From positions 4,962,501 through 5,026,500 of the forward strand of contig OX485808.1 of the NCBI GenBank assembly GCA_950295325.1: 64,000 nt of DNA, written 5' to 3'. Of the stretch, positions 25,240-64,000 are shown piece by piece. The notes under the pieces were generated by a model, which was not told the DNA's origin, ran no database searches, and saw nothing but the letters and a program-made list of their open reading frames with translations. Positions within the stretch are counted from its first letter, which is position 1. Each line of letters opens with the position of its first letter. The position numbers and the translations under genes are program-made. Source of the DNA: Polytrichum commune. Lineage: Eukaryota; Streptophyta; Polytrichopsida; Polytrichales; Polytrichaceae.

Positions 25240-26061
25240 CTATCTAGCCTCGGAGACTACCTCTTTTTCTTTTGCTTCATTTTCTTTTGCTTTTTTTTCT
25301 TTTGCCTCTTTTTCTTTTGCCTCTTTTTCTTTTGCTGCGGCTTCTTTTGCTCGCATTGCTTCAACATTCCTGAAAATCTCCGCCCCGCGACTATAGCCAT
25401 TCTTGGGGTGACCGCCATCAATAACACATTTTGGATTCCGTCGGCCGCCCGAATTATACGACGAAGAATTCGAATACGATGAAGTGGACTGTCTTGCATT
25501 TTTGGTCATGGAGTAGAAACGCTCCAACTCGACGGACGCACTAGCCCGCATAGGTCTACGGGTGGGAGCAACCTGCAACGCGTGAATGCAAGAACACACG
25601 TGTTAGTTTAGGGAGGAAGACCCAAACGTGTCACACGTTCATTTTTTAAGTGCCGGATGATTGTAATGCGCGGTTAACCATGTTTTTTTCGGGGGGGGGG
25701 GGTTCACCTTGTCACCGGGGGCGTTCCCGTCGGAGTCGGCGAGGAGGGGCAATGCGTCCCGCAAAGGAATAGGAAGGGTGCCACTCTTCGTAGGCCGAGC
25801 GTCCATCCGCAGCCGCCGTTGAGGTGTACTACTGCCGCCGGGCCGAGAGGGGGACGTCCGGACGCATTTGCGATTTATGCCCTTGAGCGGCGACGGGGAC
25901 GGAGATCGCCGGAAGATTTGCTTGGGTGGGGGGCTATCGACGACGCCGGCGTCAAGAGGCTCCTTGGAGTAGTCGATGGTGGACGCGGCATCGTAGACGG
26001 TCTCGTAGAAGAAGCTCCCCAAGTTTGATTCGCTGACGATCTCAATCGAGGGCTCCAAACG
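25240..26061 (-). CDS. Two-exon frame with Lys/Glu-rich tail, function unknown
   Basis: Exons 26061-25708 and 25572-25240 (minus strand) join in phase 0 with AG acceptors and a GTGAAC donor, giving about 229 residues. The first is rich in Ser, Pro and Arg (SPSPSPLKG, SRPGGSS); the second has a Ser/Asn-rich part (STSSYSNSSSYNSGG) and ends in a repetitive KEKEAKEKEAKEK helix-like tail. I do not recognise it. It follows the FCP1-like domain on the same strand, 120 bp beyond its stop, so it could be an alternative 3' end of that gene or a separate gene with an unseen first exon. The codon pattern on the minus strand is far better than the plus-strand shadow frames. Confidence 0.5.
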
Positions 26062-26180
26062 CTGATGGCAAAATTAAAACAAACAAAACCCAAGGGGAGG
26101 GGGGCAGGGGGGGAGCATGAGAAAATCGATATACAATTGAGGCATACTATATCACACACAATGGCACACCATGTAGTATC

Positions 26181-26993
26181 TCAAATGAGTTTATTATATT
26201 TCGCGTGAGCGTACAACTCTCTGTACATATAGTCCTTCGGATCCATGTATCTTTCGCCTATCGGATTACAACTAAGGAACCGGGGCACGGGTAGTCCGCT
26301 CCCCACGAGCGTTTGAATGTACTTAAGTAGGTCTAACAAAAAACGGTCTCGGACCTTCTCGACCGTCCACGTGGGGCAAACGATGAAGTTGGAGGTCGGG
26401 TTCAAAATGTTTTTGGAAGCGCTGTCGTCCACCATCAACGTGTTGTCACGGGTGGGGCGAACGTCGTAGGGACAGCCGACCATGGTCGGACGCTGGTCCC
26501 ATACGACTGGCTTCAAGACCTTAAGAAATTGGTTTACGGCGGGGTTGTTGGGCTTCTTCACAACCCTGCCCTCGGGGGTGTACAATGTTTTACAAGAATC
26601 CTGTCCTAGGACCAAGCACGGGGGTTGGAGTCCCTTGAAGATGAACTCCACGACGGCCTGGGTATTCTCGGACTTCATGGAGCTCCAAATGATCACCCAC
26701 CATTTGGATAGGGCGACCTGTAGGAAGCGCTGAAGCCACGGGCGGAGGTACACTAGCTTGCTTTTGATGTACGCGGGGGATCCATCGTAGTTGGCGTCCT
26801 CGGGCTTGCAGAAAGGCACCGTGGGGACCCTCGGACAATGCACGCACTGGACAAGGACCCCGTTGAGGTCTAGCACCAGGAACCGGGTCTTGGGAGGCGA
26901 AGGTGGCGAGGGCAAAATCGGGGGGACCACCGCGCTGTCCTCCACACTCCTCGGAGAGGATCGGTGGGGAGTTGCGACGCTATGTTCCGAACC
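26181..26993 (-). CDS. FCP1/NIF-like HAD domain (copy 2), possibly exon 4 of G1
   Basis: The frame is open from a good acceptor (CGCCGCAG at 26994) to the stop at 26181, about 270 residues. After a short Ser/Pro leader it shows FLVLDLNGVLVQC (motif I with Asn for the second Asp), WVIIWSSMKSE, a PCLVLGQDSC segment, LMVDDSASKN (motif III) and a C-terminal helix region. It is a paralogue of the third exon of the gene at 7750-9646. The FCP1/SCP family dephosphorylates proteins such as the RNA polymerase II tail; the Asn makes catalysis doubtful. G1 exon 3 has a usable donor at 27671 in phase 0, so this may be the last exon of G1, with one palindrome (27435-27456) in the intervening intron. Alternatively it is a separate gene starting at the GTG/ATG-poor 5' end; no upstream in-frame ATG is obvious. 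Confidence 0.7.
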   Translation of the reverse strand, partial: GSEHSVATPHRSSPRSVEDSAVVPPILPSPPSPPKTRFLVLDLNGVLVQCVHCPRVPTVPFCKPEDANYDGSPAYIKSKLVYLRPWLQRFLQVALSKWWVIIWSSMKSENTQAVVEFIFKGLQPPCLVLGQDSCKTLYTPEGRVVKKPNNPAVNQFLKVLKPVVWDQRPTMVGCPYDVRPTRDNTLMVDDSASKNILNPTSNFIVCPTWTVEKVRDRFLLDLLKYIQTLVGSGLPVPRFLSCNPIGERYMDPKDYMYRELYAHAKYNKLI

Positions 26994-27434
26994 CTGCGGC
27001 GACGAGCGAGAGAAGGCGGCGAGGACTATGTTATGTTATGTCCATCTCAAGCAGAACGGAAATTTTGTGCAAACACAAGAAGAATTGGACCATTGGTGGC
27101 AACAAAAACATACAAGGGGAACAACATACATTGGGACACGGATGCAAACATATGGGCGCCAAAAATAATAATTTTATTTTTACAAATCTCTATGTACAAT
27201 TTGATGGGGGGGGGGGCGGTGAACGAGGGCATTCACACTATCCTAATTCTACATCTACAAAATTGGTTGCGCGCCGCCAAGGTCGAGCGTAGTCGAATGC
27301 AGGTGAGACGAAGGGGATCGCGGGGGGGCACGTTGGGGGGAGGGGGAGCAAGTGTAGACCAGGGGGGGCAAGGGGTGTGCATTTCCTCCTAGCAAGGGGG
27401 ACACGACCACGCCAACAAGACAGTGACCCAGGAA

Positions 27435-27456
27435 GTTTGGGTCGGTCGACCCAAAC
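27435..27456. repeat. 22-bp palindrome in the putative third intron of G1
   Basis: Perfect copy of the first family: half-site GTTTGGGTCG, centre GT, then the reverse complement. It lies between G1 exon 3 and the FCP1-like exon. Confidence 0.95.
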
Positions 27457-27755
27457 TGGGAGGGCTCAGTGTATTACCTCGCCCTGGTCATGTCTTGACG
27501 ATGTGGAAGCCTCCACTGTCCCCGCTGCCCCGCCTCTCTCGCCACCGCCTTCTCCGACGACGTCAGGAACCTTCTCCTGCAAACGATCGGCATCAGGCCC
27601 TTGTCCTAAACCAATCTCCGCATGTGCATCATGCATGGGTTCATCGATTTGGTTAGGAGTAGAGGTATCACCAGGCCCTTGGAGGCTTCAACATCTAACA
27701 TGGTTGTGTCTCTTTGAGACACAAGTTCGTAAAGGGAAGACTGAGCTGCTTTGGG

Positions 27756-27777
27756 GTTTGGGTCGCCCGACCCAAAC
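27756..27777. repeat. Palindrome inside G1 coding exon 3
   Basis: Perfect first-family palindrome (centre CC) within the open frame; on the minus strand it encodes FGSGDPN. The G2 paralogue has the palindrome at the aligned place (63905-63926, FGSADPN). Confidence 0.95.
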
Positions 27778-29014
27778 TGTCCTGCATCTGGAGAGGGCCC
27801 TTCGGACACTACAGTGGATGGTGGGTTTGGGTCGTCCGATTGGTGGGGTGGCGCCATGACTATGGGGGGCCGAAGTGGTGGAGGGCCCAAAGGGGAGGAG
27901 GCTCCAGAGACACGCCAGATGTTGGGGTCATCCACTTGCTGGACCGGCGCGTACGGAACTTGGTGGGGCCGCATCAAGTGCTGGAAGCTAAAAGACGATT
28001 GCGGCACAGGCTGCTGAGGGATGCTCTGCGGAGGGAAGCCGGGGGGCAAGTGCGGGAAGGAGCTGGAGGGAGCCACCACCAAACCTTGCGCCCACATTCC
28101 TTGTATCACTTGTGATATCAAGTCGGCGTGGGACGGAGGTTGGGCCATCGCCCTTTGACGCTCCTGCTCCAACAGGAGAGCCCTCAGCTCTGCTACCTCG
28201 TTCCGCATTGAGGGTTCTTCCGCGGCAGCCTTCTGCAGGCGGACTCGCTGCTCCTCGTCCCTCCTCATTTTCTCGTTCGCCTCCTCCACAATCAGGACCT
28301 CGGGCTTCACCTTAATCATGCCAGCGAACGCTGTCGGGGACGGGGGATCTGATCTTAGCCGTTTGGCGAGCTCGATGTCATCGTCGTCCTCGCTGCTTAT
28401 GGCAATGGTCTCCTCCACGGAGTAGTCGCCATACAGCTTCTTCCCCTTTAACTTCCTCCTCTCCCTGAACGTCGCGGTGGCGTCCCTGGAGTACATGTCC
28501 CGTGCATCGTCCACAGTCAGGACGGGCACGAGCTTACTCTGCGGGGTTGCCGCCCGCATCGCCTTCTTCCGTTGAGGGGCTTCGGATTGTTGCGTGAAGA
28601 TTGTTGCCCCTTCCTCGACGTCGCCTTCCTTCTCCGCCTCCTCGTGTTCCTCTTCTTCCTCCTCCTCCTCCTCAACCTCGCCACCTTCTGTGCGAGACGG
28701 ATTGCCCGGATGCAACCCGACCAGAGGTTCGGGAACTTGGGTCGTGGCCCTCATGGCCATTTCCTCCGGGTTGATGCGCCTCACCCTATCAAGAGGGTTT
28801 TCGCGACCCAGAACAACCTCGTCGACGTAGCTACCCGGGATCCAATCGAGGATGTCCATCTTCTTCGCCAGCGATTTTTGCACCCTATAAAATGGCAGAT
28901 CGCCATCCTCTATGTAGGAGTATATATTCAGCCCCGACATCTATACAATCCAAGTTATAGGGAAATTAGAATTTGTCGAGGCAGTCACATAAACAAGACT
29001 AAGTGAAATGTGTA

Positions 29015-29108
29015 GTTTGGGTCGGTCGACCCAAACCTGCAAAGAGCCTAGTTTGGGCCGGTCGACCCAAACCTGCAAAGAGCCTAGTTTGGGTCGATCG
29101 ACCCAAAC
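29015..29108. repeat. Three palindromes in intron 2 of G1
   Basis: Sites at 29015-29036 (centre GT), 29051-29072 (one base changed, GGGCCG) and 29087-29108 (centre AT), spaced exactly 36 bp apart by the spacer CTGCAAAGAGCCTA. The intron runs 29136-28941; the palindromes lie near its donor. Confidence 0.95.
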
Positions 29109-30558
29109 TGCTTACGAGCTATAGAAAGTCACTTACCATAGCAGCATAGACAGGTTTTGAGCCTCCGAAGACGTTGAAGATGCAGTCCCCTCTCCTCGTC
29201 AGCGTCCTCATCATTCTCATGTAAAATTCCATCCGCAGCTCATCTGCAGGATAGTTCGCGTATTTAGCCTCGTCGTAGAGGCACTTGTTGGCACCCAACC
29301 CTTCTGGAACTTGGAAGAGTTTGTCCATCCGGGATATAGGGTGGTTCGGCACCTTCAGCAACTCCGCTTTATACACGAAGTACAAACACAAGACGTTGAC
29401 GAACTTGGTCTTCTTGTCCTTCAACGTCGTGTAAGCCCCCTCCGCCGGTGCGGCGATGTAGTGAGACTTGGACACTGCATACTCCGGCTGCAGTTTCCGG
29501 ACAAGCTCGTACACCTGCTCCGCCCTTCTATCCTCGACTATCCAAAGCCAGATATCTACCTCCCTGAACTTAGGGCTTGCATAATCGACGAACTTAGTTA
29601 AGAAGGGGTCGTAGAAGAGGGTGCTCATCGTGCCCTCAAATGAGCTTCCAGGAATATTTCTAAAATCAATCATCCCAAAAGGAAAGCGGTCCCTTGCTTT
29701 CGTCCTTATCGCCATTCTGGCGTCTTGACCTGGCCAGCCCTGAATTTTCAAAGGCTCGAAGGTGACAAGGTTGAAGTAAGCGTCCCCTTCAAACTGGACA
29801 ATCTTCTTCTCCTTGATGAAGTTCGAGAACGCACGCGCTGTGTGATCCGGAAGCGCCCGGTTCTTCCCACCCTTCACCATCCTGGCCCGCAAGAAGTCGT
29901 CCCCCGCTTCCCTTATTAGAGCCGCCATGGAGGCACTGGTGAACTTATATTCATCTTTGAATGCTCTCCAGTTAGCCTCATGAACCTCGCCGTCCACGAC
30001 AATATTCCTCTCTGGCACCAATTTATGCAGCTCCTGCACGATAGTCGTCTTCTTTTTCCTGTTCTCCGTCCATTCCTTCATGGTGTAGCATGAAGGAACG
30101 AAGGATTTGGGCTTTACGAAGACAATCTTCGGGTGCACCCAGCACCTCTTGGCCGTGGGTGCCATGTGCAGGATGTGCGATGCCGCCTTCTCCACCTCCG
30201 TCTCTGACAGCCCTTGAAGAGTTCTAAAGAACTCTCTCACGAGAGGCTTCATCTGCTTGAAGCGCGAGGCCAGGCTGAAAAAAGCGCCAGTGTCGGGGTC
30301 GATCAAATCCCCCGTCTCGTGCTTTTCAAACATGGTTTTCCACTTCCTCCAAACTGAGTCCGATGTTGTAATCAAGTAAATCTCCCCCTTCAGGTCACTG
30401 TATTTCTTCTGCTTGTGGCTCGAATTATCAATGGAGGAGAATTTGTTGATCATTTGGTATTTGAAATCCTGCACGTGAACAAAACATAACATTTGAATGC
30501 GTGTTAGTTAAGTACATATGATTTTCAAACCATATCATGACCAACATCTACAACAAGA

Positions 30559-30727
30559 GTTTGGGTCGGTCGACCCAAACTGAAAAAAAACACAAGACTG
30601 CAACAGTTGTTTGGGTCGATCGACCCAAACTAAAAAAACACAAGACTGCAACAGTTGTTTGGGTCGATCGACCCAAACTAAAAAAAACACAAGACTGCAC
30701 CAGGAGTTTGGGTCGGTCGACCCAAAC
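30559..30727. repeat. Four palindromes in intron 1 of the G1 coding region
   Basis: Sites at 30559-30580 (centre GT), 30609-30630 (AT), 30657-30678 (AT) and 30706-30727 (GT), spaced 48-50 bp with an AAAACACAAGACTGCA spacer. The intron spans 30736-30469, between the exon ending KWE and the exon starting DFKYQ. The G2 intron at the same place has two sites. Confidence 0.95.
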
Positions 30728-32062
30728 AATATTCACCTCCCACTTGGGATTCTTGTCCTTCGCATTCTCCCTCTCCTTGGGAGGCCTACCATAGAACTCC
30801 CACACCTCCCGCGAGGCCATGATATTCCTTATCCAGGAAGCTTGGTAGGCCCTCTTCTTGTTTCCCATATTGAAGTACCGGGAGATGTCGCTGAGCTTGG
30901 TCTTGTCGTCAGACCACACCACCAGTGCCTTCCAAACCTTCAGCTTTTCCTTCTAATTGTTGGGATCGTCCCACTTATTCATGAGTTGGATTTTCTTGGA
31001 TGCCTCCACGCTGTGTTGGCCGTCTATCAGCCAAAAATCGCCCTTCTGAATTGTTGGCCACATTTCAGGTGTAGGCATTTTCTTGAGACCCTGTGGCATC
31101 ACTACAATCGTTTGCCTGTCGTCTTTAAACTGCTCGCAAATGATCTTCGCGATTATCCAGTCAACGTAGGCGTCCTCCTTTGCCCGGACACACTTCTCCG
31201 GTGGCGCTAGATGGCACTGGCTGATGTTCACGTCGAACTTGAAATCCCTGCCCATGAAAAAACAGTGGGAGCATTTCGTCGTGAAATTGTTCACGATTTT
31301 CTGCAGCTCCCCTGCATCCACCTCTTTGCCGGGCTTCGGCATGCGCAACTCCGGTGAGACTGGCTCGTCAGTCATCACAGATGACTCTCTCGCCCTCTTG
31401 GATGGAGTTGTTTGACGGCTCCCAGAAGGTGTAGGGGTCTCACTATTCGTAGGTGTTTGGGAGGGAGTGGTCCTACGCGAGTCAGCCGGTACTGGTAGCG
31501 GCATCCTCACCGATTGAGGTCTTAACGACCCTGCTCCTTCCTCTGTGGGAGCTTTCCGCCTCACAGGTTGCTGTGATTTGGTTTTGCTTTGCAGGCCCCT
31601 GTTCAGCACGGTTATTGCATGTTTTAGTTTTGTGAACCGGCTTGAGACCTTGGTATTCGATGTACTCCCATCGATAAATATTGTCCCCGGCTTGATAACT
31701 TCCGGTTCGACACAGGACTCTCTTGCATAGAGTGCGTCGAAAGGCTCGGAGAACTGGTGCATGAACATATGCGCGTTCTGCACAGCCGAGTTCTCGAGGA
31801 TGACGTCGGTATAGTCTCCAAGAGAATGTACCGATGCGACCTCCCATCCCGTAAGAGTCGCCCAGGTGTGTTTCTCCACGGTTCCCACCTTGACAACAAA
31901 AATCATTTTGTATGTTGAGGCTTTGACTACTTGAATAGACCAAGCGAGGACAAGCCCGTCCTTAGGGGAATAGGAGCCATCCTGCGGGGTTTCGTGCTCC
32001 TGCCACAACATGTCCGGCGCAGGCATGAACCACCTTTCGCCGGGTCTTTTCTTTGGAGCCAT

Positions 32063-32629
32063 CTGTAAGAAAATAATGTGCAAAGTTAGTTTCGGTCGTT
32101 CGACCCAAATATCTACGACATGAATAGGTTTAGGTGGATTGTGTATTTATATATTTCAGCATCATTTGTAATGATAATAAGAATGTTGTGATTATTGGAT
32201 GGATTTGCATTTTATATTGTTTGTGACATGCAGGATTCCTTGATACTTTTCCTTGATACATTCTTTGATTATTATTTTGGGTTGATGTGAATTTTATATT
32301 GATGCAAAAATCATGGATTTCTTTATGAGTTTATAATTAGAAGACTTAGTTTGGGTCGTTCGACCCAAACATGATGCTTTGTGTTATATTTTGGTCGTTC
32401 GGCCCAAACATGATGCTTTGTTTTGTGTTTGGGTCGAGCGACCCAAACAAGGGGCTGTGTTTGGGTCGGTCGACCCATACAAGAGGCTGTGTTTGGGTCG
32501 TCTCCCCAAACAGTATTATTTTAATGTATTTTTTAAACTTGGCATCTAGCGTATACAATGCTTATGCATTGTGTATGCTACAAAACCGTGAATATACAAA
32601 CACATATTGGTTAAAATAAAACAAAATAC
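32063..32629 (-). repeat. 5'-leader intron of G1 with six palindromes
   Basis: An intron is inferred from the acceptor TTACAG directly before the ATG at 32062 and the donor GGTATTTTG at 32629. It shares CAATGCATAAGCATTGTATA with the G2 leader intron (58448-58472). Palindromes, some imperfect, lie at 32089, 32349, 32388, 32427, 32459 and 32491. The intron is 567 bp here against 1271 bp in G2, a difference largely due to palindrome expansion in G2. Confidence 0.75.
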
Positions 32630-32764
32630 CTTTCAAAGATGTTGTGCAGACAATTTGGAGTAGAGCAGGTTGTTCTTCCAATAATTCTCAATATCAAACA
32701 AACTGTGAGAAAGTTCAATGAGAAACTTTCAAACAAGTATCAACTCTCTCAAATAGCTCTTGGA

Positions 32765-33050
32765 TCTCTCAACCAACTCCTGAATCTCACACGGAACTAC
32801 TGAATCTCTCAAAAGACTTCGAAATGTCTAAACCAACTCCTGAATCTCACACACAACTACTAAACCTCTCAAAAGCCTTCGAAATGTCCAAACCAACTCC
32901 TGAATCTCACACACAACTACTAAACCTCTCAAAAGACTTCAAAATGTCTAAACCCACTCCTGAATCCCTCACAAAACTACTGAATCTCTCAAACGACTTC
33001 GAAAACTCTCAAACAACTCTTGATACTCTTAAAGAACTCTTGAATTTCAC
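32765..33050. repeat. 60-bp tandem repeats in the G1 leader region
   Basis: Four to five units of about 60 bp with AACTCCTGAATCTCACACA and CTCTCAAAAGACTTCGAAAT. The plus-strand frame at 32824-33195 reads a 20-residue repeat (KPTPESHTQLLNLSK), but the repeat length, divisible by three, explains the open frame. It lies just upstream of the leader-intron donor of G1, on the opposite strand, so I take it as non-coding leader. Confidence 0.7.
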
Positions 33051-33239
33051 AAGCACTCCTAAAACTTCCAGTACAAACACCTGGACCTCCCAAACCGAAG
33101 CTTTATCTACTACCGAATGTTCTACTAACTTCCTTCAGCACTTTCCAATACTCTTCAACACTCTTTTGCTAACTTCCTTCACTCTCACGCTCTAAAACCT
33201 TCCTCCGTATGTTTCTGTTTCTTTCAAAACTCTTCCTAA

Positions 33240-33415
33240 CTTCTAAGATTGCACAAGGGCTATTCTATTGAAGAGCAAAAGAAAGGAGGGAAAAGAAGAT
33301 GCAGAAGAAAGCAATGAACGCGGGAGAATGAAGGGTTAACCTACACCAAGCCTGATTCGCCGCGGCGCTTTGCGAAAGCGGCGCTTCAGGAGAGGCGGCG
33401 CTTCCAAGCGAGGCG

Positions 33416-33473
<58 letters not shown>

Positions 33474-33560
33474 AATGAGAAATGCGACGGTTGGGGTTTT
33501 GTTTACCTCGGGCATTGGCCCCCAACCGCATGAATAGGGTGCCCACAGGATTAGGGCACC
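33240..33560 (-). promoter_or_regulatory. Promoter/5' leader region of G1 with (GA)n tract
   Basis: On the minus strand this reads a CT-rich tract (33418-33470 is a (GA)n microsatellite on plus), then GGAAGCGCCGCC and GAAGCGCCGCT words, then a CT-rich leader. The same order (GCGCCGCC and GAAAGCGCCGCC words, then long CT-rich leader) lies upstream of G2 at 57700-57930, which argues for a conserved promoter/leader. No clear TATA box was found. Confidence 0.55.
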
Positions 33561-36400
33561 CACGGAAACAGGGTTACAGGGAACCCTAAAACCTAAATCA
33601 TAACGCTTGACTCTAAACCCTTAGCGGGCCTACCTCTTTAAGAGTACATAGGCTATTTGCCTCATAGCATAGGTTGCATTCTACAATATCAACTTTTTGT
33701 AAGTTGAAAACCTTTTGAGTTTGTAAGTTCCTCGCCAATTGCCTCAAAACTAAATTTTAGTAGGTTAAAATCCTTCATATCTTTTAATGTTGTAGGTTTT
33801 AAAATCAAAATTTGAGTACTAAGTGGGATCCTTGGCAGGAATTGAACCTGGCTAAGCCTTTCACCACGTTTGAAGGCCAAGGATTAACCAAGTCCTTTTT
33901 AAAGAGTTGATTATAAGTTTTGAAAGGTTGCTAAAATTCAAATGAGTTTCAGGGTGAAAGTTCTCACCATGTTCTCATTCAACCTCTACTCTTCCTGCAA
34001 GATATAGCCTAAAGATATGCACTTAGGCCAACTAATTTCCCAATTTGAAGAAGGATGAATGGCTAAAATCCTTTCTTTTAAAAAAAATTTAGGCAAAATT
34101 TCCTAAATGTTTTTATCACATAGGTTGATATCCTATGTTTTTAAATTGTCCATAGGCTCTTTGTCCTACACTTTCAAAATTTTATAGGCTAAGTCACTAA
34201 TTTTGTAGGCTGCATTTGTTTTAATCGGTATATTCGTTAATTTGGGATTTTTTCGGCATTTTGAGAAAGTTACAAATATAAGAACATGGATAAAATCGCA
34301 CGTACATTGGAGAATGTTGTAAGATGCAAATACTTTGAAGCGGGTGTTCATATCAAGAACGCAATTAAGATCTCATATGAAGATGGTTTAGGTAGGACGA
34401 CCCAAACATTACACTATGTTGTTGTGGTCCATATATTAATTTGAGAGAAGAGAAAATCTCAAATTAGCAAATTTTAGGGTTTAGGTTCTTTTGGACCCTG
34501 CTCTAAACCCTTATTAATTTTTTCAAAAGAACTATGGAGTACCCTAAGGTGCTACATAAAATGTGTTATTCTACAAAACTAACCATTTATATAGCCAGCG
34601 CATTCTTACAACAAAACTTTATGCTAAACTAATACTTATCCCCTACTTACATGACACCATACCCTAAATTTTCCAAAATCATTGAAGGCATTGGTTTCTC
34701 TTTTGTTTGAGCATGTTAGAAAATTTAAACCATATAATTGCGTTATATTTAACGATGTAACCATTCACATTTAGTCTTTACCAATGATGCCAACAATTCA
34801 CACGATATTGAATGAAAAAAAAGAAGATTACCCACACCCCCCAACATGTGGAACAATTTAGAATAATTGAGTGTGGAGCCTAATAAATGAATACCTTCCC
34901 CAACTGCATTTTGCAAGGGTTTTGAAATGCACGATCCTTATTTGAAAATGCGAACATGCTCAAGTTTTAAGTACATCCCTTAGATCGTGACTTTCACGAA
35001 TCACATAGTCGCCAATAAATCATGGTTCATGATATATTTAATATATAGATTGTGATATAAGAGTAAATGGGATAAGCACAACATCAAATGAAGCCATTCA
35101 AGCAATCATGTTGTTATTCCCTGTTCCTTCCATGTATATTAGATGATGGCGCAAGATAAAATAGATGTTGTTTGTATATGGGGGCATCAGTGAACCACAA
35201 CTACATTTGGTGTTTAGGGTTTAGGAGATAGGAGATAGGAGATAGGAGATAGGGTTATAACATATTAATCTATCCAATGTCAATGTATAACATTGTCTTA
35301 CTCGTGAGAAGAGTCTTATAGGAAGGTTATAGTGAAGACGATGTTGATTATGTTAATTTGTTATTTGAGACGTTTAAACGCGATATATTGATTGGTCGTG
35401 TGTTTATTCAAATAACATGAAATATTGTGGATGTTAATAGGGGCTAGGGGTCCAACTTTGGATGTTTCGCTCACTTTAGGGAATCACATATTAGTCGCTA
35501 ATAAACCATCGTTCATGATGTATTTAATATATGGAATGTCATGTAAAAGTAAATCGGAGAAGCACAACATCATGTTGTTATTCATTGTTCTCTCCACGTG
35601 TATTAGATAATGGAGGAAGATATAACAGATATTGTTTGCATAATATGAAGAAGAGTCTAATCGGAAGGTCATAGTAAATACAATCTTGATCATGTTAATA
35701 TGTTATATGGGACGTTTAAACATGATATCCTAATTGGTTTTGTATTTAGTCAATGCGTATTTCATGTTGTGGATGTTATAAGGGTTTAGGGTCCAATCTT
35801 GGATGTTTTGCTCTCACATATTAGTAAACTTGAAGTGAACTTGAGGATGAATTCAAGTAACATTAAAAGATTGAACTAGAAAGGGACATTGGTAGTTAGT
35901 ATCCCCTTAACAACGTCCACATACGTTCGTCATTGCCACTCTTGCATGCGAGATAATAGAGCAAGGTTCTAGGGTTTAGGGTTTAGGGGGGACAAATAAA
36001 TAATTCTATTCATCATGACAATGGCCTCAAGCCTTGGAAACTCTCTCATAATTGCAGCCTCCAAATGGCCCAAACCCCACCTAAATAGGTTTACACTTGA
36101 AAGCATTGAATGGAGTTGTGTTTGGGTCTACATATTGGTTAAAATATACCTTGATGATACTTGAAAAAATTAATGTGGCCGCCACCCTTCCTCCCAATGG
36201 CGTATGTCATATCCACACAAAACAAAACAAATAGATTAAATAACATAGACTAAGTCATATGACGGCTGGGGTATCAGAGGGGCATTGATAGATGCGCATT
36301 TTTCTACTATAAACATAAAACGGGGAATTCTGTCAGGAGGTTTGAAATAACCTCTGCAAGAGAAGAAGGCGGGGAAGACATCCAATGACTAAGTCTGGGA
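33561..36400. other. Divergent intergenic region between G1 and T2
   Basis: No gene. It contains a MITE with an embedded 22-bp site (34228-34470), two related blocks at 35030-35180 and 35510-35650 (a diverged duplication), a heptamer array GGAGATA at 35224-35252, and TTTAGGG words near 35213 and 35968. Segments here match, in inverted order, the T3-G2 intergenic region (for example 35065-35110 against 56735-56790), so both divergent modules share this spacer. Confidence 0.65.
34228..34470. mobile_element. MITE of the GTTAATTTGAGA family with an embedded 22-bp site
   Basis: Ends GTTAATTTGGGATTTTTTC and (reverse complement of the right end) GCTAATTTGAGATTTTCTC bound about 240 bp. Inside, 34386-34407 reads GTTTAGGTAGG then ACGACCCAAAC, a 22-bp site like the large palindromes but with one half altered. 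The same site occurs inverted at 56916-56937 in the other module. Confidence 0.65.
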
Positions 36401-36412
36401 AGCGGAGGTGGA

Positions 36413-36423
36413 TAGTATAAAGG
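36413..36423 (+). promoter_or_regulatory. TATA box of T2
   Basis: TAGTATAAAGG. T3 has GTAGTATAAAG on the minus strand at the equivalent place (54842-54852). Downstream both share a leader with AAGGTTCGTG, then ATGC and CCGTT..ATGAG words. The ATG lies 1.4 kb downstream, implying a long leader intron. Confidence 0.65.
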
Positions 36424-53230: not shown

Positions 53231-53422
53231 TTTGCCTACACACATGAACATGGAACCTTGTAAAGAATTGACAAAAGCTATAGGGTCCAATAGAAAAACA
53301 CAGAAACCTTATCATAACACATGTTGTATGAATATTATATCGATGGGTTCCAAAAGGATGGAGCGCACAACAGTTTGTTCAGGATCCGTCTATGCACATC
53401 CCCATTCTGTGCATGAGGGTGG

Positions 53423-54628: not shown

Positions 54629-54841
54629 ATTCCGCAAATTCCGCCTTAAATTGCGGTAATCTTCCATATTCAGCTACGTGGATACTAATTGGAAGAATTC
54701 AGGCCGTGCATGGCTGTTGTAATTAGCTACTCATCAACGGATGCATACACGAACCTTGCACTCCACCACTACTTGAGAGAGCTTGCAACCATTTCAGAAT
54801 GGAGAGATGAGAAAAAAGGAGCAAAGTTTGGGGGGTTTGGT

Positions 54842-54852
54842 ACTTTATACTA
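54842..54852 (-). promoter_or_regulatory. TATA box of T3
   Basis: GTAGTATAAAG on the minus strand, followed by a leader that shares AAGGTTCGTG and CCGTTGATGAG words with T2 (36500-36540). The promoter is intact although the gene is not. Confidence 0.6.
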
Positions 54853-55967
54853 CCCGCCTCCGCCTTGGCCTTCCTCTTTGGATCCCTTTCCCGCCCGAAC
54901 GTAAACCCTAAACCTAAGTTCAAACCTTCTGACAGAATTTCCCGCTTCTTGTTGGTAATAGAGCATCCATATTTAGCCTGCCTCATGGTGGCGCCAACCA
55001 TCAAATGACCTTGGACAACTAACCTCCTAATTCCGCTATTAAATAACTACACAAAATATGATGTGTGGATTTGATTATATGTAGTGTTGTTACCACCCTT
55101 ACATGCTCAACATTAATTTTCAATCCTATGACAGTTAATGTTAGAAGTAAATGTGTTGCTACCTTCTACTCTCACGTATATTTCTTCTTTTCACATCCTT
55201 ACTAACACTAAATTCAAACATGTCAATGCCACATATTACTATAGCTTATATTTATTTTTTGAGTTTATATTTAATGTTTATTACTTTCATATGGTTATTG
55301 ATATATTGTGTATGCACTTGTATTTAGTGTATCAAACACTAAATATCATACTTATTGTAGTTGTGTTTTGTACCTATAGTTTTTATTGATTTGGCTTGCC
55401 AAAAAAATGTAGTCAACTTTATTTGTTTTAACAAATGTTTGATGAAAAATCTAAACATATATAGTTGTATCTATTCAATGCAAGTTGAGTAGAACATGTC
55501 CTTAAATACATGTTGGTGTGTTCTAGTGTCACTACACTAAATAAGATATTTAGAGATTTATACACTAAATATGAACGCATCTACGACGTACCAATACCAC
55601 TATGACAGTAATTAACATTAAATGTAAACTGAAACACTCAATGTTAATTATAAAGGTCATATGTTTGAACATAGTGTTAGTAAGGACACATGACACTTTT
55701 TAGTTCGCTCTTTCAAGGATTTTTAAACCTATCATGAACTCCATTTCAACTGCAGCTTTGCATGTGAGCCAAACATGCAAAGTCGAATAATATGTACGTC
55801 CTCATAACAAACATAACATGAAATGTAACCAACGTTCATGTTCATGAATTAGACTATTGTGATATCTATATACATTTGTTTTTAGAACCACAAGCGACTT
55901 GGCCCCCTCATTTGACCTATGCGCCATTCATTTATGGCTTCGAGTGCAACAAGACACATTTATATAC

Positions 55968-56012
55968 CCTAAACCCTAAACCCTAAACCCTACACCCTAC
56001 ACCCTACACCCT
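55968..56012. repeat. Interstitial telomere-like CCCTAAA/CCCTACA tract
   Basis: About six units, the first CCCTAAA and the later ones CCCTACA. It sits directly before the MITE at 56036. Confidence 0.9.
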
Positions 56013-56035
56013 CGTAGTTGTTCAAGGTTGCTTCC

Positions 56036-56653
56036 CACGGGTAGGTCACTTAGTGCATTTAAAAAACGACGTGCGGCATAATATAGAGAGGATTGAAATC
56101 ATTTGAAATAAAAATTATAAAGGAATTCCAAATAATGAAGGGGCCATTAAATGTAGACAATCCCATTATAAGTAAGTTAGATGGACATAAAATGTGGGCC
56201 ATTATTTTTTTGTAAAATTAATATAGGGGCTGAAGATAAGGTTCCTAGAAGGTATGTTTAGTATAATGTTTGCTATGGTCTCCTATGTGTTTTCTTCATA
56301 ACTTTGTTTGCAATGATATTATTGTTTGCACCCTTGTTCAATGATATTATTGTTTGCAATGATATTATTGTTTGCACCCTTGAATAGTTCTTTGTTTCCA
56401 TGGTTTCCCTTAACACTCGTCAATGCGTTAGGAAGTAGATTAGCTTTTATTACTTAAAAGGAATATAGAGTACAAAAAATTGCAGTGACTTGGACAATAT
56501 AAGTAATGGAAGGGTGCAAACAAATGGGCCATTTTTGAAATTCAAGTAATTATAGGGAGGCTTTAATTCAACCCTTGAAGGTAAATAACCCCAAAACAAA
56601 AAACCCCGAGCCGCACGTGGTGCACAAAAATGCCTTAGAGTGACCTACCCGTG
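56036..56653. mobile_element. Foldback MITE, CACGGGTAGGTCACT family (copy 2, 618 bp)
   Basis: Both ends begin CACGGGTAGGTCACT; the arms continue with GTGCATTT and ACGTGCGGC words. Flanking GCTTCC occurs on both sides in the same orientation. Copy 1, with the same type of ends, lies at 16934-17345. Confidence 0.75.
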
Positions 56654-57639
56654 TGGCTTCCATATAGAACACCATCTACTGTAATTTGTGCCTCATTTCC
56701 TAATAAGATATGTTGTTTAATATATGTGGAGGGATCATCCAACAACAAAGTGATTGCTTAAATGGCTTCATATAATGTTGAACTCCACATATTAGTATTT
56801 GATAGCTTCATATTTGTATACATGGTGCTTCTCTCATTTACTATCACTATATTCAATATTTGTAGACTTTATCTTGTCTCAACTAAATATATGAACAACA
56901 ACAACATTGTCTAATGTTTGGGTCGTCCTACCTAAACCATCTTCATATGAGTTCTTAATTGGGTTCTTCAGCAAAAACACCCGCTTCAATATATTTGTAT
57001 CTCATAAATATGTAAACTTGTAAATAAGTATGTTAATGTTCCATCATGCTATAAATCAAACAACATCTTTGTTGCTTTTCGCAAACAACAATGATATTAA
57101 GTTGTCAACACTTAATATTGCATAATTCCATATTATAATGAATGACATTACATAAACTTGTATAATTAGATTTAGTTCAATGGTATGTGTTAACGGATCC
57201 ATCGTAGGCTATAGCATTGTCCTTTACCAACAACCTTCATAGATAATTACAATATATAACTCGAAACCATTCATTGTGTAAATGGTTACCATAGTTATAT
57301 TATTCCATTATGTAATTGCCTACGAGGATTGCAATATAATTATTAAATACTCCTCTTAGTCTAGTATCTATCATTCTCGATTCATGCATATGTGTAGATT
57401 ACTAAAATTACAAAACCAATACAGTTTCATTATTTGATATTAGCAAATCCATCGGGGGAACATTAAATTAAAAACCTTAGGCTATAAAGGTTTTTTAGTA
57501 TCCTCAAGGATGGTATGGGATAGGTGGCTAAAGGATATCCACCTGCGAGGCCTATCGACCGTCGATGGGCCTGGGGTTCTCCAATGGCTCAGATTGTGTA
57601 TTTGTTTGGGCCATGGAGCGCCCCGTGACACGTGGCGGC

Positions 57640-58394
57640 CATGAGCCGAACGGACACGAAAGGCGCCGGCCCGAATGGGTCCCGCCCTTGAGTGACCTTC
57701 CCCCTTTCACTCTCCCCTCCGCACTTTCTCCTTCTCTCTCCTCCGCTCCAAGCTCCTCCTCCTTTGTACGTTCCTCATACTTTCTGGAGGCGCCGCCGCT
57801 CTTGAAAGCGCCGCCTCCTCCCTTGCATTCTCTCTCTCCTTGTCGAACTCGCATTCCCTCTCTCCTTCCCTCTTCATCATTATCTCATTCTCTCTTTCAC
57901 TCCTCCTCTTCTTTTGATCTATTTTGTTGTTCATTGAGTGCGCATTGAGCGAGTTCTGAGTGTAGTATGAGTTTTAGGGTTTGTTTTTGTATTAAAGTCT
58001 ATACATTTTAGCCATTTCAGAACGTCTTTGTTGTTTTGGAGTGTGAGTGTTGTTTCAAAGTGGTTGTGTCAGTTCCTCCTGGTCTTAGAAACATTCATGT
58101 GTGAGTGTAGAGTGATTTCGGAATTAGAATGATTGTTCGAAAATCAGGGTGCATGTGTGGCCTTCAGATAGCTTCTTTGTTCATGTTTGTAAACACTTGT
58201 TACATTCAGAGTGAATGTTTGTGAGGGATTGTTTAATTCTGAGTGAATGTTTGTGAAAGCTTCTTCAATTCAGAGTGAATGTTTGTGAGGCGTTCTTAGT
58301 TTTATGATATCCAATCCTTTCTAGAATCAGCTTCCAAGACTAGCTTGTTAGAACTGCTTCCAACAGCAGCTTGTTGTGTAGTTTGCAAAGCAAG
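57640..58394 (+). promoter_or_regulatory. Promoter/5' leader of G2
   Basis: Contains GGCGCCGCCGCTCTTGAAAG and GCGCCGCCTCC words, then a long CT-rich leader (57830-57925), then three direct repeats of TTCAGAGTGAATGTTTGTGA (58205-58285). It ends at a donor (AAG then GTAATTTC at 58395). The GCGCCGCC-plus-CT-rich layout is shared with the G1 promoter. No TATA box is obvious. Confidence 0.55.
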
Positions 58395-59665
58395 GTAATT
58401 TCTTCAACTTCTTTATGTGTGTCAATTTCTTTAGAGTTTCGCAGCATCTACAATGCATAAGCATTGTATATGCTGTGTAAACACATTATAAAGGTCTCTG
58501 GAATCAAAAGTGTTTCGAGAGACGACCCAAACTTCAGTTTGAAACCCTAAAACACTAAACTCTGCAGCTGGTTTGGGTAGAGCGACCCAAACTCTCCAGC
58601 TGGTTTGGATCGTTCGACCCAAACTCTGAAGATGGTTTGGGTCGTTCAACCCAAACTAGCAGATGCTTTGGGTCGTGGGCGCCAATCCATCTGCAAAGTT
58701 TGGGTCGCTCGACCCAAACCATAAGCATAGTTTGGGTCTAGGGTTTAGCCAAACTCCGCATCAAATGTTCATTTATAATTAATTTAATCATCATCTTGGG
58801 TGAATATCTAACCCTATCGACCCAATCCATCTGCAGAGTTTGGGTCGCTCGACCCAAACTAGCACCTGCTTTGGGTCGTTCGACCCAATCCTTCTGCAGA
58901 GTTTGGGTCGCTCGACCCAAACTAGCACCTGCTTTGGGTCGTTCGACCCAATCCTTCTGCAGAGTTTGGGTCGCTCGACCCAAACTAGCACCTGCTTTGG
59001 GTCGTTCGACCCAATCCTTCTGCAGAGTTTGGGTCACTCGACCCAAACTAGAACCTGTTTTGGGTCGTTCGACCCAATGTATCTGCAAAGTTTGGGTCGC
59101 TCGACCCAAACTAACACCTGCTTTGGGTTGCTCGACCCAATCCATCTGCAAAGTTTGGGTCGCTCGACCCAAACTAGCACCTGTTTTGGGTCGCTCGACC
59201 CAATCCATCTGCAGAGTTTGGGTCGTTCGACCCAAACAGCGCATGAAATGGTAATTGATAATTTAGGTAATTGTCATCTTGGGTATGATCTAAGGCCATA
59301 GCCGATCATTCCATACCGCTACAAAGTTTGGGTCGAACGACCCAAACTCTGCGTAAATTTTTACTGCTTACGAACAATACTTACACTTATAAACAACAAC
59401 TCAAACACCCAAGCAATAATGAAATGACCAACAACTAGAACAGTAGCTCCTGATGATTGTTGTATCCATGAACATAAAGATTGGTTTTCGTAGCCAAATA
59501 ATATATTATTCATTAGCCATTGTAGGCACATGTTTGGGTCGTTCGACCCAAACCTGTGAAAAGTAACCCCATATATAAATGTTACTAAACCCAGACGTAA
59601 GCCTATATGATTTGAAAGAGTTTGGGTCGCCCGACCGAAACTAACATATGTATTTCTACTTGCAG
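58395..59665 (+). repeat. 5'-leader intron of G2 with a palindrome array (63-bp period)
   Basis: The intron is inferred from donor GTAATT and the acceptor TTGCAG directly before the ATG. Perfect or near-perfect palindromes start at 58571, 58603, 58635, 58698, 58838, 58901, 58964, 59027, 59090, 59153, 59216, 59326, 59532 and 59620. From 58838 to 59216 the period is exactly 63 bp, and midway in each unit lies a related, shorter palindrome (CTTTGGGTCGTTCGACCCAA). The open frames of 150-170 codons on both strands exist because 63 is divisible by three; they are not genes. Confidence 0.9.
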
Positions 59666-62600
59666 ATGCCCCCCAAGAAAAGACCTGGAGAACGATGGTT
59701 CAAGCCGGCACCAGACGCGATCTGGCAGGAGCACGAAACTCCTAAAAACGAATCCTACGTAGCAAAAGAAGACCTTGTAATTGCATGGTCCTTTCTTGTA
59801 GTAAAAGCAGCTCAATTCAAAATCCTCCTTGTTTTGAAGGTTGGCACGGAGGAGCAACACACATGGGATCCTTTGACGGGATGGGAGGTGGCATCAATTC
59901 AGGTTCTAGGAGAGCACGTTGACGTCATCCTGGAAAACTCTTCTCTGGAAAATGTGCACATGTTCATGCATGAGCAAGCGGAGCCATTCGATCCGGTATA
60001 CGTGAAGGAATCCTGCGCTGAGCCAGATATTGTTAAGCCGGATACAATCTTCATAGATGCGATCATTTCAAACACGAAGGTTGCAACCAGGTTCACTAAA
60101 CTTAAGCAGGCAATCAACGCAATAAACAAGACCCAGCAAAGCAAGTCAAAATCTCAACAAGCTGTGAGGCGCAAGGCGACTGCTGAAGAGGGCGTAGGGT
60201 CGTCAAGACCTCAAACAGTGAGGAAGCCCCGACCGGTTCCAGCTGACTCGAGGAGAACAACACCTACGGCAACTCCTGCTGATAGTGAAACACCGACGCC
60301 ATCACAAAGCCGGCAGACGACACCATCTAAGAGGCCGAGTGAGTCAGCATCTGCCATGACAGATGAGCCTGTTTCACCGGAGCTACGTATGCCCAAGCCC
60401 GGGGAAGGAGTGGAGCCATCGGAGATCCAGAAAATACTCAATAGTTTCGACACCAAGTGTTTACATTGTTTTTTCATGGGCAGAGAATTCAAGTTTGATG
60501 TCAACATCGCACAATGCCACCTAGCGCCACCAGAGAAGTGCGTTCGGGCAAAGGAAGATGCGTATGTTGATTGGTTAATCGCCCAGATGGTGAGCGACCA
60601 GTTTAAACATGATAGGCAGACTATTGTTGTCATGCCTCAGGGACACAAAAGAATGCCTACACCGGATATGTGGCCTTCTATAGAGAAAGGCGATTTTTGG
60701 CTGATTGACGGTCAGCACAGTGTTGAAGCTTCAAAGAAACTTCAACTGATGACGGAGTGGAATGATCCCAATGGTCTAAAGGAAAAATTGAAGGTATGGA
60801 AGGCATTGGTCGTGTGGTCGGACGACGAAACCCGGCTGAGCGATATCTCCCGCTATTTCAACATGAATAACAAGAAGCAGGCATATCAAGCTTCTTGGAT
60901 TAGGAACATCATGGCATCGCGGGATGTGTGGGAGTTTTACGGCCGGCCTCCCAAGGAAAGGGAGAATGCAAAAGACAAGAATCCAAAGTGGGAGGTGAGC
61001 ATTGTTTCTCAAACAGAGTTTGGGTCGATCAACCCAAACTTTGTGTTTCTTCATACAGTTTGGGTCGCTTGACCCAAACCTTGTGTTTCAGTTTGTGTTT
61101 GTCTACGCAGTTTGTTGTTCATCATTTTTCTTCTTTGTTTGGAAACAACATATTGAGAATTAACACGCATTCTATGCTCTTGTGCAGCTTTTCAAATACC
61201 AAATGATAAACAAGTTCTCCTCAATTGACAATTCAAGTCACAAGCAAAAGAAGTACAATGAGCTAAGAGGAGAGATCTACTTGATTACATCATCCGACAT
61301 GGTTTGGCAGAAGTGGAAGACAGTGTTTGAGAAACACGAGACAGGGGATCTCATGGATCCTGACACATGCAACCTCTTCAACTCGTCCTCTCGATTCAAG
61401 GTGATGAAGCCTCTCATGAGAGAATTCTTTAGAAGTCTGCAGGGTCTTTCAGAGGCGGAAATGGGGAAGGCGGCAACGCACATCTTGCACAACAACCCGA
61501 CCCCTAAGAGATTTTGGGTGTACCCCAAAATAGTCTTCACCAAGCCGAAATCCTTTGTTCCTTCATGCTACACAATGAAGGAATGGGCGGAGAATAGGAA
61601 GAAGAAAACAACGATCGTCCAGGAGCTGCAGAAGCTAATCCCGGAAAAGAACATTTTTGTCGATGACGAGGTGAACGAGGTGAACTGGAGAGCGTTCAAG
61701 GCTGAATACAACTTCACCAGTGCATCCATGGCAGCTCTGATCAGGGAGGCAGGAGAAGACTTCCTAAAGTCAAAACTGGTGAAGGGTGGGAAGAACCTGG
61801 CTCTTCCAGAACACTCGACGTGTGCCTTCTCGAACTTTATAAAGGAGAAGAAGATTGTAAGTTTTGAGGGGGATGCGCATTTCAACCTTGTCGTTTTTGA
61901 CCCTATTAAAATCCAGGGATGGCCCGGCCTTGATTCCAGGAAAGAAATACGAGTAAGAGCAGCGGACTGGTTCTCCTTTGGCATAATAGACTTCCGGAGC
62001 ATTCCTGGGAGTACGTTTGAGGACACAATGGGTACACCCTTCTACGAGCCCTTCATGTCGAAGTTCGTGGAGTATGCAAGCCCTAAGCTTAGGGAGGTCG
62101 ATATGTGGCTGTGAATAGTAGAGGATAGGAGAGCAGAGCAAGTGTATGAAATTGTGAGGAAATTGCAGCCTGAGTATGCGGTGTCTAAGTCTCACTACAT
62201 TGCTGCAATGGCGGAGGGGGTGTACACGACACTAAAGGACAAGAAAACCAAAGTCATGAATTTGTTGTGCTTGTACTTTGTGTTCAAAGCAACCTTGCTG
62301 AAGGTGGAGAACCACCCCATAACCCGGATGCAGAAACTATTCCAAGTTCCAGAAGGCCTGGGTGCAAGTAAGTTCCTCTACGACGAGGCAAAATATGCCA
62401 TATACCATTCGGACGAGTTGCGGATGGAATTCTATCTCCGAATAATGAGGGCCTTGACGAGAAGAGGGGACTGTATATTCAACGTCTTCGGCGGTACCAA
62501 GCCCATCTTCGCTGGCATGGTAAGCTCCTTACCATAATTGTTTTCATAGTTTGGATCGAGCGACCCAAACTAACACTGATGCTAGTTTGGGTCGCTCGAC

Positions 62601-64000
62601 CCAAACTATAACTTTTGCAATTGATATTAGGTCTTGCATGTACTTCCCCTTTTCGGTGGAATCACATGTTATGCCATATAATAACATCTGGTGGGATTTC
62701 TGCAGATGCTGGGGCTGAACGTGTACAGCTATGTAGACCTTAATGACATCCAATTCTACAAGGCCCAAAAATCGTTGGCGAAGAAGATGGATATACTAGA
62801 CTGGATCCCTGGGAGCTACGCCGAGGAGACTGTTGAAGGGGGTGAGAGCCCGCTGGATAAGGCGAGGCGTGTCAACCCTGAAGAATTGGCCATAAGGGTT
62901 CCAGTTGCTGTACCAGAGCCTCTGGTCCAAGTGCATCCAGGCACATCCTCTCGGCGACCGCGTGACGAGGAGGGGGAGGAGGAGGAGGAGGATGAGGAGG
63001 TGGAAGAGGAGGAAGAAGAGGCTAAAGTGGAGGGCGAGGTCGAAGAAGGGGGAACAGGCTTCACTCAGGAATCTGAAGCCCCTCAACGAAAGAAGGCAAT
63101 GCGGGTAGCAACTCCACAAAGTAAGTTGGTGCCCGTCCTGACGGTTGATGATGCCCGCGACATGTACTCCAGGGATGCGACTGCCGCGTTCAGGGAGAGG
63201 AGGAAACTAAAAGGCAAGAAACTCTATGGCGACTATGCCATCGAGGAGACAATTGCCATTAGCAGCGAAGACGAGGACGACATGGAGCTCGCCAAACGGC
63301 TCAGGTCGGACCCTCCCTCTCCAGGTGCCTTCGCAGGGATGGTGAAGGTGAAGCCGGAAGTCCTCACCGTGCAAGAAGCCAACGAGAAGATGTTAAGGGA
63401 CGAAGAACAACGCGTCCACTTGCAAAAGGCCGCTACTGAAGAACCCTCAGTGCGGAACGAAGTGGCAGAGCTAAGGGCTCTCTTATTGGAGCAAGAGCGA
63501 CTGCGGGCATTGGCGCAACCTCCAACTAGCGCGGACTTGATCACGCAAGTGATTCGAGGCATGTGGGCGCAGGGTTTGGTGGTGGCTCCCCCGGGCTCAT
63601 TTCCACACTTGCCCCCCGGCTTCCCTCCCCAGAACATTCCTCCGCAGCCCGTGCCGCAATCCTCCTTCAGCTTTCAGCACATGGTTCCCCCCCACGTCCG
63701 TCCGTATCCGCCGGTTCAACAAGCGGATGACCCCAATATATGGCGCCTTCCCGGGTCTTCTAGACCTGTGACCCCCCCACCACTTCGGCCGCCCCTGGTG
63801 ATCCCCCCGCCCCATCAGCAGGACGACCCCCACATGTTTGGGTCGTCCGACCCAAACCCGCCCCCCCTTACAGTGCAACAAGGCCAATCTCATGATGCAG
63901 GAGAGTTTGGGTCGGCCGACCCAAACCCCGTGACCGCTCAGTCTTCAATGGACCAACATGGGTCTGAAAGAGACACACCCATGCCTGATGTTGAAGGTCC
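59666..64000 (+). pseudogene. G2: ParB/DGQHR-like gene with one in-frame stop, cut by the window end
   Basis: Exons 59666-60994, 61188-62519 and 62706 to beyond 64000, all phase 0. It is a paralogue of G1 over the whole length. Exon 1 starts MPPKKRPGERWF and has DFWLIDGQHSVEASKKLQ (Asp about 348), like the ParB/DGQHR motif, then WSDDETRLSDISRYFN and WEFYGRPPKEREN. Exon 2 is Lys-rich; its TGA at 62112-62114 replaces the TGG of G1 (IWLWIVEDRR). Exon 3 starts MLGLNVYSY, then an acidic run, DARDMYSRDATAAFRERRK, a helical segment and a Pro-rich tail with two in-frame palindromes. Unless the TGA is read through, the protein is cut near residue 751. Two palindromes lie in intron 1 (61018, 61058) and two in intron 2 (62549, 62585). 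The FCP1-like part, if present, lies beyond the window. Confidence 0.75.
63836..63926. repeat. Two palindromes inside G2 coding exon 3
   Basis: Perfect 22-bp palindromes at 63836-63857 (centre TC, encoding FGSSDPN) and 63905-63926 (centre GC, encoding FGSADPN). At the aligned place of the first one G1 has only a half site (27826-27840 region, reading SDDPNPP); the second is shared. Confidence 0.95.

Follow-up and report, generated by a model that had tools for sequence, protein, structure and literature searches.

Large transposons with a ParB-like partner gene and family-specific palindromes in the moss Polytrichum commune

When the same gene arrangement occurs twice within one stretch of a plant chromosome, does it mark a mobile element, of which kind is that element, and what do its genes do? 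The stretch analysed here, referred to as the window, comprises 64,000 nucleotides from Polytrichum commune (assembly GCA_950295325.1, 408 Mb in 64 contigs; contig OX485808.1, here C6:4962501-5026500). As stated in the initial annotation, it contains a divergent gene pair twice and in opposite orientation: T2 (plus strand) and G1 (minus) show the same arrangement as T3 (minus) and G2 (plus). T is a candidate transposase, G a partner resembling ParB and DNA methyltransferase proteins, and a third, FCP1-like gene accompanies most pairs. The T-G-FCP1 module is a real mobile DNA transposon. We consider it probable that it is a cut-and-paste transposon of the Sola kind, 16-18 kb in size, which is moved by T. 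The likeliest role of G would be to bind palindromes within the element and so to protect or regulate it.

Module 1 is inserted in full length, bounded by terminal inverted repeats (TIRs) and a target site duplication (TSD) of its own, and represents what is here called the A subfamily (Table 1). A 22-bp piece of the element end has 877 forward and 881 reverse matches genome-wide, allowing up to two mismatches; the reversed pattern, used as control, has none in either direction. The spacing of ends was analysed for the first 100 matches listed, 93 of which are on contig C1. There, 37 neighbouring plus/minus pairs are less than 100 kb apart, and 21 of these are spaced by 14-19 kb (two are shorter, 14 longer). 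Random placement of ends gave 0.10 pairs at 14-19 kb on average and at most two in 1000 trials. Two samples were chosen blind to content, namely ten end pairs (eight long; two short, 3.6 and 4.8 kb) and six end pairs, all 16-18 kb, which were studied as full sequences. Together with the window copy these are 17 insertions, and all 17 have exact 4-bp duplications outside AACACTA...TAGTGTT; when flanks were compared between elements, 4 of 272 comparisons agreed. With a 1-kb piece of the element as query, 39 further places were matched at 97-99% (best 40 of 507 candidates), and the 40 matches listed are all on contigs C1-C7. For at least these closest copies, amplification is therefore recent.

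The six full copies, picked by end spacing alone, all hold T, G and FCP1. From one end to the other, each of them has the same gene order as the window copy, with FCP1 and G (both reverse), a spacer and then T (forward). In one copy (E029), about 0.9 kb interrupts the T frame. Of the seven copies, five belong to subfamily A and two (E023 and E027) to subfamily B. A G-like gene divergent to T was also found in the other families described below (A3, TC, TD and locus L057), and in locus L058 by its methyltransferase-like part only. The concern that T and G might rarely be neighbours is not borne out in this material, which is a sample and not a genome-wide census (150 of 1489 candidate places were scored for T and 90 of 1308 for G). 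Ends, duplications, copy number and constant gene order thus give strong support to the proposal of a self-propagating, mobile unit. The gene-drive-like action also suggested is not supported: general Pfam scans returned no homing endonuclease and no killer or antidote domain, and no test aimed at drive was made.

Table 1. Features of the window (positions within its 64,000 nucleotides) and palindrome motifs of the transposon families.
Feature	Position or sequence	Strand	Basis or remark
Complete A-subfamily transposon	24699..41447, 16,749 bp	.	perfect 28-bp TIR and 4-bp TSD AAGG
Left TSD AAGG	24695..24698	+	target duplication
Right TSD AAGG	41448..41451	+	target duplication
Left TIR AACACTATATTCGTTAAATTGAGACTTT	24699..24726	+	sequence match
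Right TIR, perfect inverted copy of AACACTATATTCGTTAAATTGAGACTTT	41420..41447	-	sequence match
FCP1-like gene (NIF, PF03031), motif DLNGV (DxN)	26181..27035	-	Pfam, motif scan
G1, ParB-like and methyltransferase-like	27606..32062	-	frames 27606-28940, 29119-30507, ~30760-30952, 30953-32062
T2, DUF7869 transposase candidate	37750..40916	+	exons 37750 to ~39309 and ~39432 to 40916; GT-AG intron
Palindrome array (13 palindromes) upstream of T2	36703..37674	.	palindrome scan
Palindromes upstream of G1	32346..32520	.	palindrome scan
Palindromes between G1 frames (intron)	29012..29111	.	palindrome scan
Palindromes between G1 frames (intron)	30548..30727	.	palindrome scan
257-bp insert inside A element, like a miniature inverted-repeat transposable element, ends resembling element ends	34229..34485	+	self-matches
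B-subfamily element, T side truncated	51745..64000	.	FCP1 and far end beyond window, end at C6:5029479
T3, only 5' half of B transposase gene	51745..53251	-	frame, comparison with full copies
G2 (B), runs past window edge	59648..64000	+	frame, comparison with flanking DNA
Palindrome array upstream of T3	53413..54628	.	palindrome scan
Palindrome array upstream of G2	58557..59238	.	palindrome scan
FCP1 end of T1-family element	7716..10965	+	FCP1-like frame 8798-9643, terminal 27 bp 10938-10964
T1 transposase fragment of separate element	11992..16620	+	fragment 12592-15823, right end 16594-16620, T1-type palindromes 11992-12514
A, B palindrome motif	TTGGGTCG-NN-CGACCCAA		
A3 palindrome motif	TACGAACG-NN-CGTTCGTA		
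T1-family palindrome motif	TTCACTCG-AT-CGAGTGAA		
TC palindrome motif	CACGGGTG-NN-CACCCGTG		
TD palindrome motif	GTGAGGCA-TG-TGCCTCAC		

The second module is a separate copy from the B subfamily, so that the two modules are not one duplicated block, as had been assumed. Its FCP1 gene is found just beyond the window edge, and no T-side end was detected within three mismatches of the 24-bp end pattern. B elements have the same ends as A elements and differ from them by 21-28% in the G protein and by 24% in FCP1. About 30 further places match G2 at 95-97% identity (90 of 1308 candidates scored). The promoter spacings of 2.8-2.9 kb given initially for the two modules were not confirmed: the first ATGs of the frames, which may not be the true starts, lie at 32062 and 37750 in the first module (5.7 kb apart) and at 53251 and 59648 in the second (6.4 kb). 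Repeat copies coding for DUF247 proteins, 88-92% identical, occur at 18785-21730 and 48985-51753, and one of them ends within about 10 bp of the point where T3 breaks off.

Elements with related genes but other sequences could be assigned to further families. A3 (C5:31.80 Mb) has the same gene order, ends AACACTATATTCG, a target duplication TTTA, and a G homologue in the same element as T (tblastn 1e-86). In TC (C3:7.18-7.21 Mb), FCP1 (8e-23), G (tblastn about 1e-10) and T follow in the same order, and the T-side end alone was located. TD (C6:41.94 Mb) is an element of 11.0 kb with perfect 24-bp ends AACACCGGTTTCGTTAAAAGTGCA, a duplication GGAA, and divergent G and T genes. Its T pieces are about 25-39% identical to T of the other families. 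Its G was recognised by eye (GQH motif) and by weak tblastn matches (E 0.002; 6e-4); matches to TD of the G profile hidden Markov models (HMMs) give no independent evidence, as TD and A/B rows were used to build these models. The search for G was extended to three additional T places. One (L057) is TD-like with G beside T; another (L058) represents a further family, and the protein beside its T matches the methyltransferase-like part of TD (BLASTP 9e-20), with no ParB motif found in it; the third (L059) is uninformative, as it has no frame of at least 150 aa.

The T1 family is represented in the window by two pieces, which had been taken for a third unit of neighbouring T1 and FCP1 genes. The stretch 7716-10965 aligns with a T1-family copy at 95.7%, both stopping at the same point, and the terminal 27 bp of the FCP1 element recur at 16594-16620 in the same direction. 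Positions 10965 and 16620 are therefore two right ends of two elements, and a single FCP1-T1 unit at 8.8-15.8 kb was rejected; no left end of the T1 type was found in the window. At another T1-family locus (L044-L045), G (tblastn 3e-22, HMM 9.9e-16) and FCP1 stand in line up to an end at 8975. The sequence does not reach a T of its own, and weak T and FCP1 pieces follow at 10.1-13.2 kb, beyond the end. A "mirror" FCP1 copy left of the window was considered as an element of its own and rejected, since its match (L060) to window 10734-11134 continues at 100% past the end of the FCP1 element at 10965. Inverted pairs of T1-family FCP1 genes, with about 18.6 kb between the two members, were also seen twice within 90 kb (C2:23194936/23213583 and C2:23262696/23281301).

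Palindromes were found in A, B, A3, the T1 family, TC and TD. The exact palindrome TTGGGTCGNNCGACCCAA has 23 sites in 24699-41447, 38 in 51745-64000, and none elsewhere in the window. Palindromes with arms of at least 9 number 24 in the window A copy, 33 in a B copy (E023), 22 in the A3 locus, 9 in the T1-family part, 19 in the TC stretch and 8 in TD; one shuffled control of each gave 0, 1, 3, 0, 0 and 2, respectively. Most are copies of one motif per family with a common geometry of 8-NN-8 bp (Table 1). The central two bases vary in A/B, A3 and TC (AA, TT, AT) and are fixed in T1 (9/9) and TD (6/6). When 11 elements or element parts were searched with the five motifs, the resulting table was block-diagonal, all off-family cells being zero even with one mismatch allowed. 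The sites are rare in coding sequence: protein-supported exons make up 47% of the window A copy and 45% of E023 and hold 1 of 23 and 3 of 31 sites, respectively. Clusters precede both T and G, and others separate G exons from each other or G from FCP1. Genome-wide, the A/B motif was counted 10,011 times and its reversed control not once; some of the 100 sites listed fall outside elements with recognised ends.

The only significant Pfam match of T is DUF7869 (E 4.6e-41 for T2 and 3.4e-40 for T1); no literature on this domain was found. Two blocks, QxDN and GHTHxDxD, are invariant in all five aligned rows, and an earlier Asp-containing block, HDKMD or DGMDQ, is seen by eye in those frames that reach that far. 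These blocks may constitute a DDD set, and we infer from them that T is a transposase. Scans of IMG/VR (66 and 162 pattern stretches) confirmed no viral relative of T or G, and a viral origin was rejected. Among 105 prokaryotic stretches, one (L051) encodes a full-length relative of T, a 963-aa frame with 46-47% identity filed under a cyanobacterial metagenome assembly, which is probably plant contamination.

In G, the pattern GQHxxxA and eight more positions (R, P, V, S, N, R, W, P) are invariant in five rows, in the manner of a ParB domain. A comparison of this part of G2 with 50,697 phage records gave no match at E 0.01. In the tail of G, all six aligned rows share the residues D, R, P and W, and a GG-x-K block is present in A, A3, the T1 family and TC. 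Read by eye, this tail resembles a degenerate methyltransferase, a reading that becomes likelier because the Ectocarpus protein in the same position is stated to combine ParB and methyltransferase parts. No significant match of the tail to a methyltransferase profile or structure was obtained.

The NIF/FCP1 homology domain (PF03031) was matched in A, A3, the T1 family and TC (in the window E 5.7e-14 for 26181-27035 and E 1.6e-8 for 8990-9643). Active FCP1/SCP phosphatases carry a catalytic motif DxDx(T/V). A scan allowing D or N, which did not match A3, found DLNG or DVNG in all 11 sequences matched (A, B, T1 family, TC), none of which has the catalytic motif. Since DxN replaces DxD in every one of these, a non-catalytic role is likelier than an active phosphatase, and the protein may rather bind the transcription machinery or act as its decoy. 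FCP1-like frames of the host genome form several families, with identities from 100% down to about 33% (150 of 1047 candidates scored).

The ratio of nonsynonymous to synonymous substitution rates (dN/dS) was computed between the window A copy and B copies. FCP1 has a ratio of 0.21-0.23. Among the G frames, the first has 0.06 at a saturated dS of 2.6-2.7, the third 0.08 (dS above 1.5) and the fourth 0.14-0.15. The first and second part of T have 0.21-0.26 and 0.14-0.20, the window B copy yielding no second part. Purifying selection on the gene set is evident between A and B. The spread of dS, which is lowest in the second T part (0.13) and highest in G frame 1 (2.7), suggests that A and B are mosaics with exchanged segments. 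Within A, the first G frame compared with copy E031 gave a ratio of 1.55 at a dS of 0.008, too few changes to be used. Between A and A3, no dS resulted for three comparisons (G first frame, both T parts) and no alignment for the fourth G frame.

Taken together, a mechanism can be sketched. T would cut at the inverted repeats, which begin with AACACTATATTCG, and join the ends to 4-bp staggered cuts, giving rise to the 4-bp duplications; catalysis is suggested by the conserved Asp motifs. G, the divergently transcribed accessory protein, would bind the family-specific palindromes upstream of T and G, inside the introns of G and beside FCP1, presumably as a dimer. ParB proteins bind palindromic sites, and G is the constant partner of T; G is therefore the best candidate for the palindrome-binding protein. 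Its binding might keep the element expressed or unsilenced, by analogy to VANC in VANDAL transposons, and FCP1 would be an additional accessory gene, which was not detected in TD, the complete family that diverges most.

Several observations weigh against this interpretation. For T, the AlphaFold model of T1 is unusable (mean predicted local distance difference test score, pLDDT, 31) and gives no support for an RNase H-like fold. No significant Pfam family, and no Pfam ParB match, was found for G; its matches to PHROG ParB are weak (E 0.086 and 0.25). Alignment by hhalign to four ParB proteins from one bacterial genome gave E 0.0034 over 16 columns with a probability of 9% (best E of 20 column shuffles: 0.23). 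The model of the ParB part of G2 (mean pLDDT 33) supports neither a ParB nor a methyltransferase structure, and where a motif of the DPPY type is expected, the tail reads DFRxIPG (A, B, A3, T1 family), DTRFLPG (TC) or DCRNGPT (TD). The window G1 has one in-frame stop between its last two frames, so that action in cis would not be required of G; this codon is read through in the A copies E021, E025 and E031, and E029 was unmatched by the scan. TD has few palindromes, six of them exact, and between its ends no FCP1 match better than E 0.19. Finally, the observed/expected CpG ratio per 2 kb is 0.53-1.06 in 24001-42000. It is 0.44-0.79 to the left of this (1-24000) and 0.50-0.74 to the right (42001-64000, with the B element), and there is no clear sign of methylation protection.

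Other explanations must be weighed against the same data. The window matches itself in inverted orientation at 27686-32109 versus 63996-59621 (73% identity, 4.5 kb) and at 37833-39309 versus 53246-51766 (85%, about 1.5 kb), as if both modules were one local inverted duplication of host DNA. However, each module, while 73-85% like the other, is 95-99% identical to members of its own subfamily elsewhere, copies occur genome-wide, and module 1 has its own target duplication, so that this explanation fails for both modules and retains a negligible probability. It is also improbable that T alone moves DNA and that G and FCP1 are captured passenger genes. The missing FCP1 in TD and the stop in the window G1 would be explained in this way, but G and FCP1 have dN/dS values of 0.06-0.23 between A and B, and the pairing of G with T persists across families although their T pieces are about 25-39% identical.

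The role of G leaves more room for alternatives. T itself might bind the palindromes for transposition or autoregulation, as the subterminal repeats of Spm are bound by TnpA, with another role for G, for example adding or erasing a DNA mark. The largest array is directly upstream of T in copies EW and E023, and motif and T are both family-specific, so that co-change alone has no power to single out G. The motifs are not concentrated at the ends, however, and sites also precede G, interrupt it within introns and adjoin FCP1. We hold this alternative to be less probable than binding by G. Still more doubtful is that G is an active DNA methyltransferase that places N6-adenine or N4-cytosine marks on the element encoding it, a function proposed for the Sola1 protein of Ectocarpus. 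The shared gene orientation and the ParB plus methyltransferase make-up of that published protein speak for it, as do conserved tail blocks that resemble methyltransferase motifs by eye, but the catalytic motif [DNS]PP[YFW] is not seen in the six aligned rows and no profile of a methyltransferase family or structure is significantly matched. We favour G as a palindrome-binding accessory protein. Going beyond this, we tentatively suggest a ParB-parS-like addressing system borne by transposons, in which G, perhaps with FCP1, would read palindromes of shared geometry but private sequence, load along the element and keep it open to transcription or replication, with at least five co-diversified codes in one genome, one for each transposon family. 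If true, at least five transposon families with a shared protein architecture would use different palindromic addresses in one plant genome, and self-recognition by a transposon protein and escape from silencing could be tested by swapping proteins and palindromes.

Some further repeats are found in the window. Direct and inverted repeats of another family lie on both flanks of the A insertion (22362-24460 and 41526-41945). Remains of a Copia-type retrotransposon occupy 44729-47571, with Pol_BBD and gag_pre-integrs domains within 46816-47571. A perfect inverted repeat, 1-572 versus 5662-6233, is centred near 3117. Its mirror extends to the left of the window and, still at 100% identity, beyond the end of the FCP1 element (10965) as far as at least 11134. 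Either the chromosome itself contains a large palindrome here, or the assembly is at fault.

It remains to place the elements among known transposons. CACTA/EnSpm elements have a 3-bp target duplication and a transposase of the Transposase_21 type. Despite the (AA)CACTA ends, this class was rejected, since the duplications are 4 bp long and T carries DUF7869; Transposase_21 was not among the Pfam matches of T up to E 1. Sola elements have a DDD transposase, a 4-bp duplication and very variable ends, are present in the moss Physcomitrella, and are described as mostly 2-9 kb and in some cases larger than 15 kb (PMC10741241). Sola traits seen here are the size of 16-18 kb, the 4-bp duplication in 17 of 17 insertions as well as in A3 and TD, and perfect terminal inverted repeats of 28 bp (window) and 24 bp (TD). 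As duplication length, size and the divergent ParB/methyltransferase-like partner fit, membership in the Sola superfamily is probable, an assignment drawn from these three features.

The closest counterpart is Sola1-1_Ec32 from Ectocarpus, a giant Sola-1 element of 21.5 kb with a protein of 1104 aa, ParB-like plus DNA methyltransferase, on the strand opposite the transposase (PMC12477816, 2025). The moss elements are likewise giant, and their G gene is on the strand opposite T, as is the case for the ParB-methyltransferase accessory proteins of algal transposons. With the T-G pair published for this Sola1 element, the suggestion of a transposon class outside those known is not supported. In contrast to Ectocarpus, several families exist side by side in the moss, most have an FCP1-like gene, and the methyltransferase motif is apparently degenerate. 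The main text of that paper, supplements aside, contains neither "palindrom" nor "phosphatase" (PMC12477816). In the literature searched on Sola, ParB-methyltransferase and VANC transposons, no description was found of such an FCP1 gene, of a palindrome code or of so many families coexisting.

VANDAL transposons, which are MULEs (Mutator-like elements), resemble the moss elements in having element-specific arrays of short motifs in non-coding parts that change between families. The VANC motifs of VANDAL21 in Arabidopsis are non-palindromic, 8-9 bp long and located in introns and upstream regions, where such arrays can serve anti-silencing (PMC5735166). Here, in contrast, the motifs are palindromes of 18-28 bp, and G is a candidate for the binding protein. 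As in bacterial ParB-parS systems, mobile DNA of the moss combines palindromic sites with a gene for a ParB-like protein, but the likeness of G to ParB is confined to one motif region. The ParB-methyltransferase accessory protein, reported in the literature searched from algal transposons, would be extended to a land plant, where it occurs with a third gene and in high copy number.

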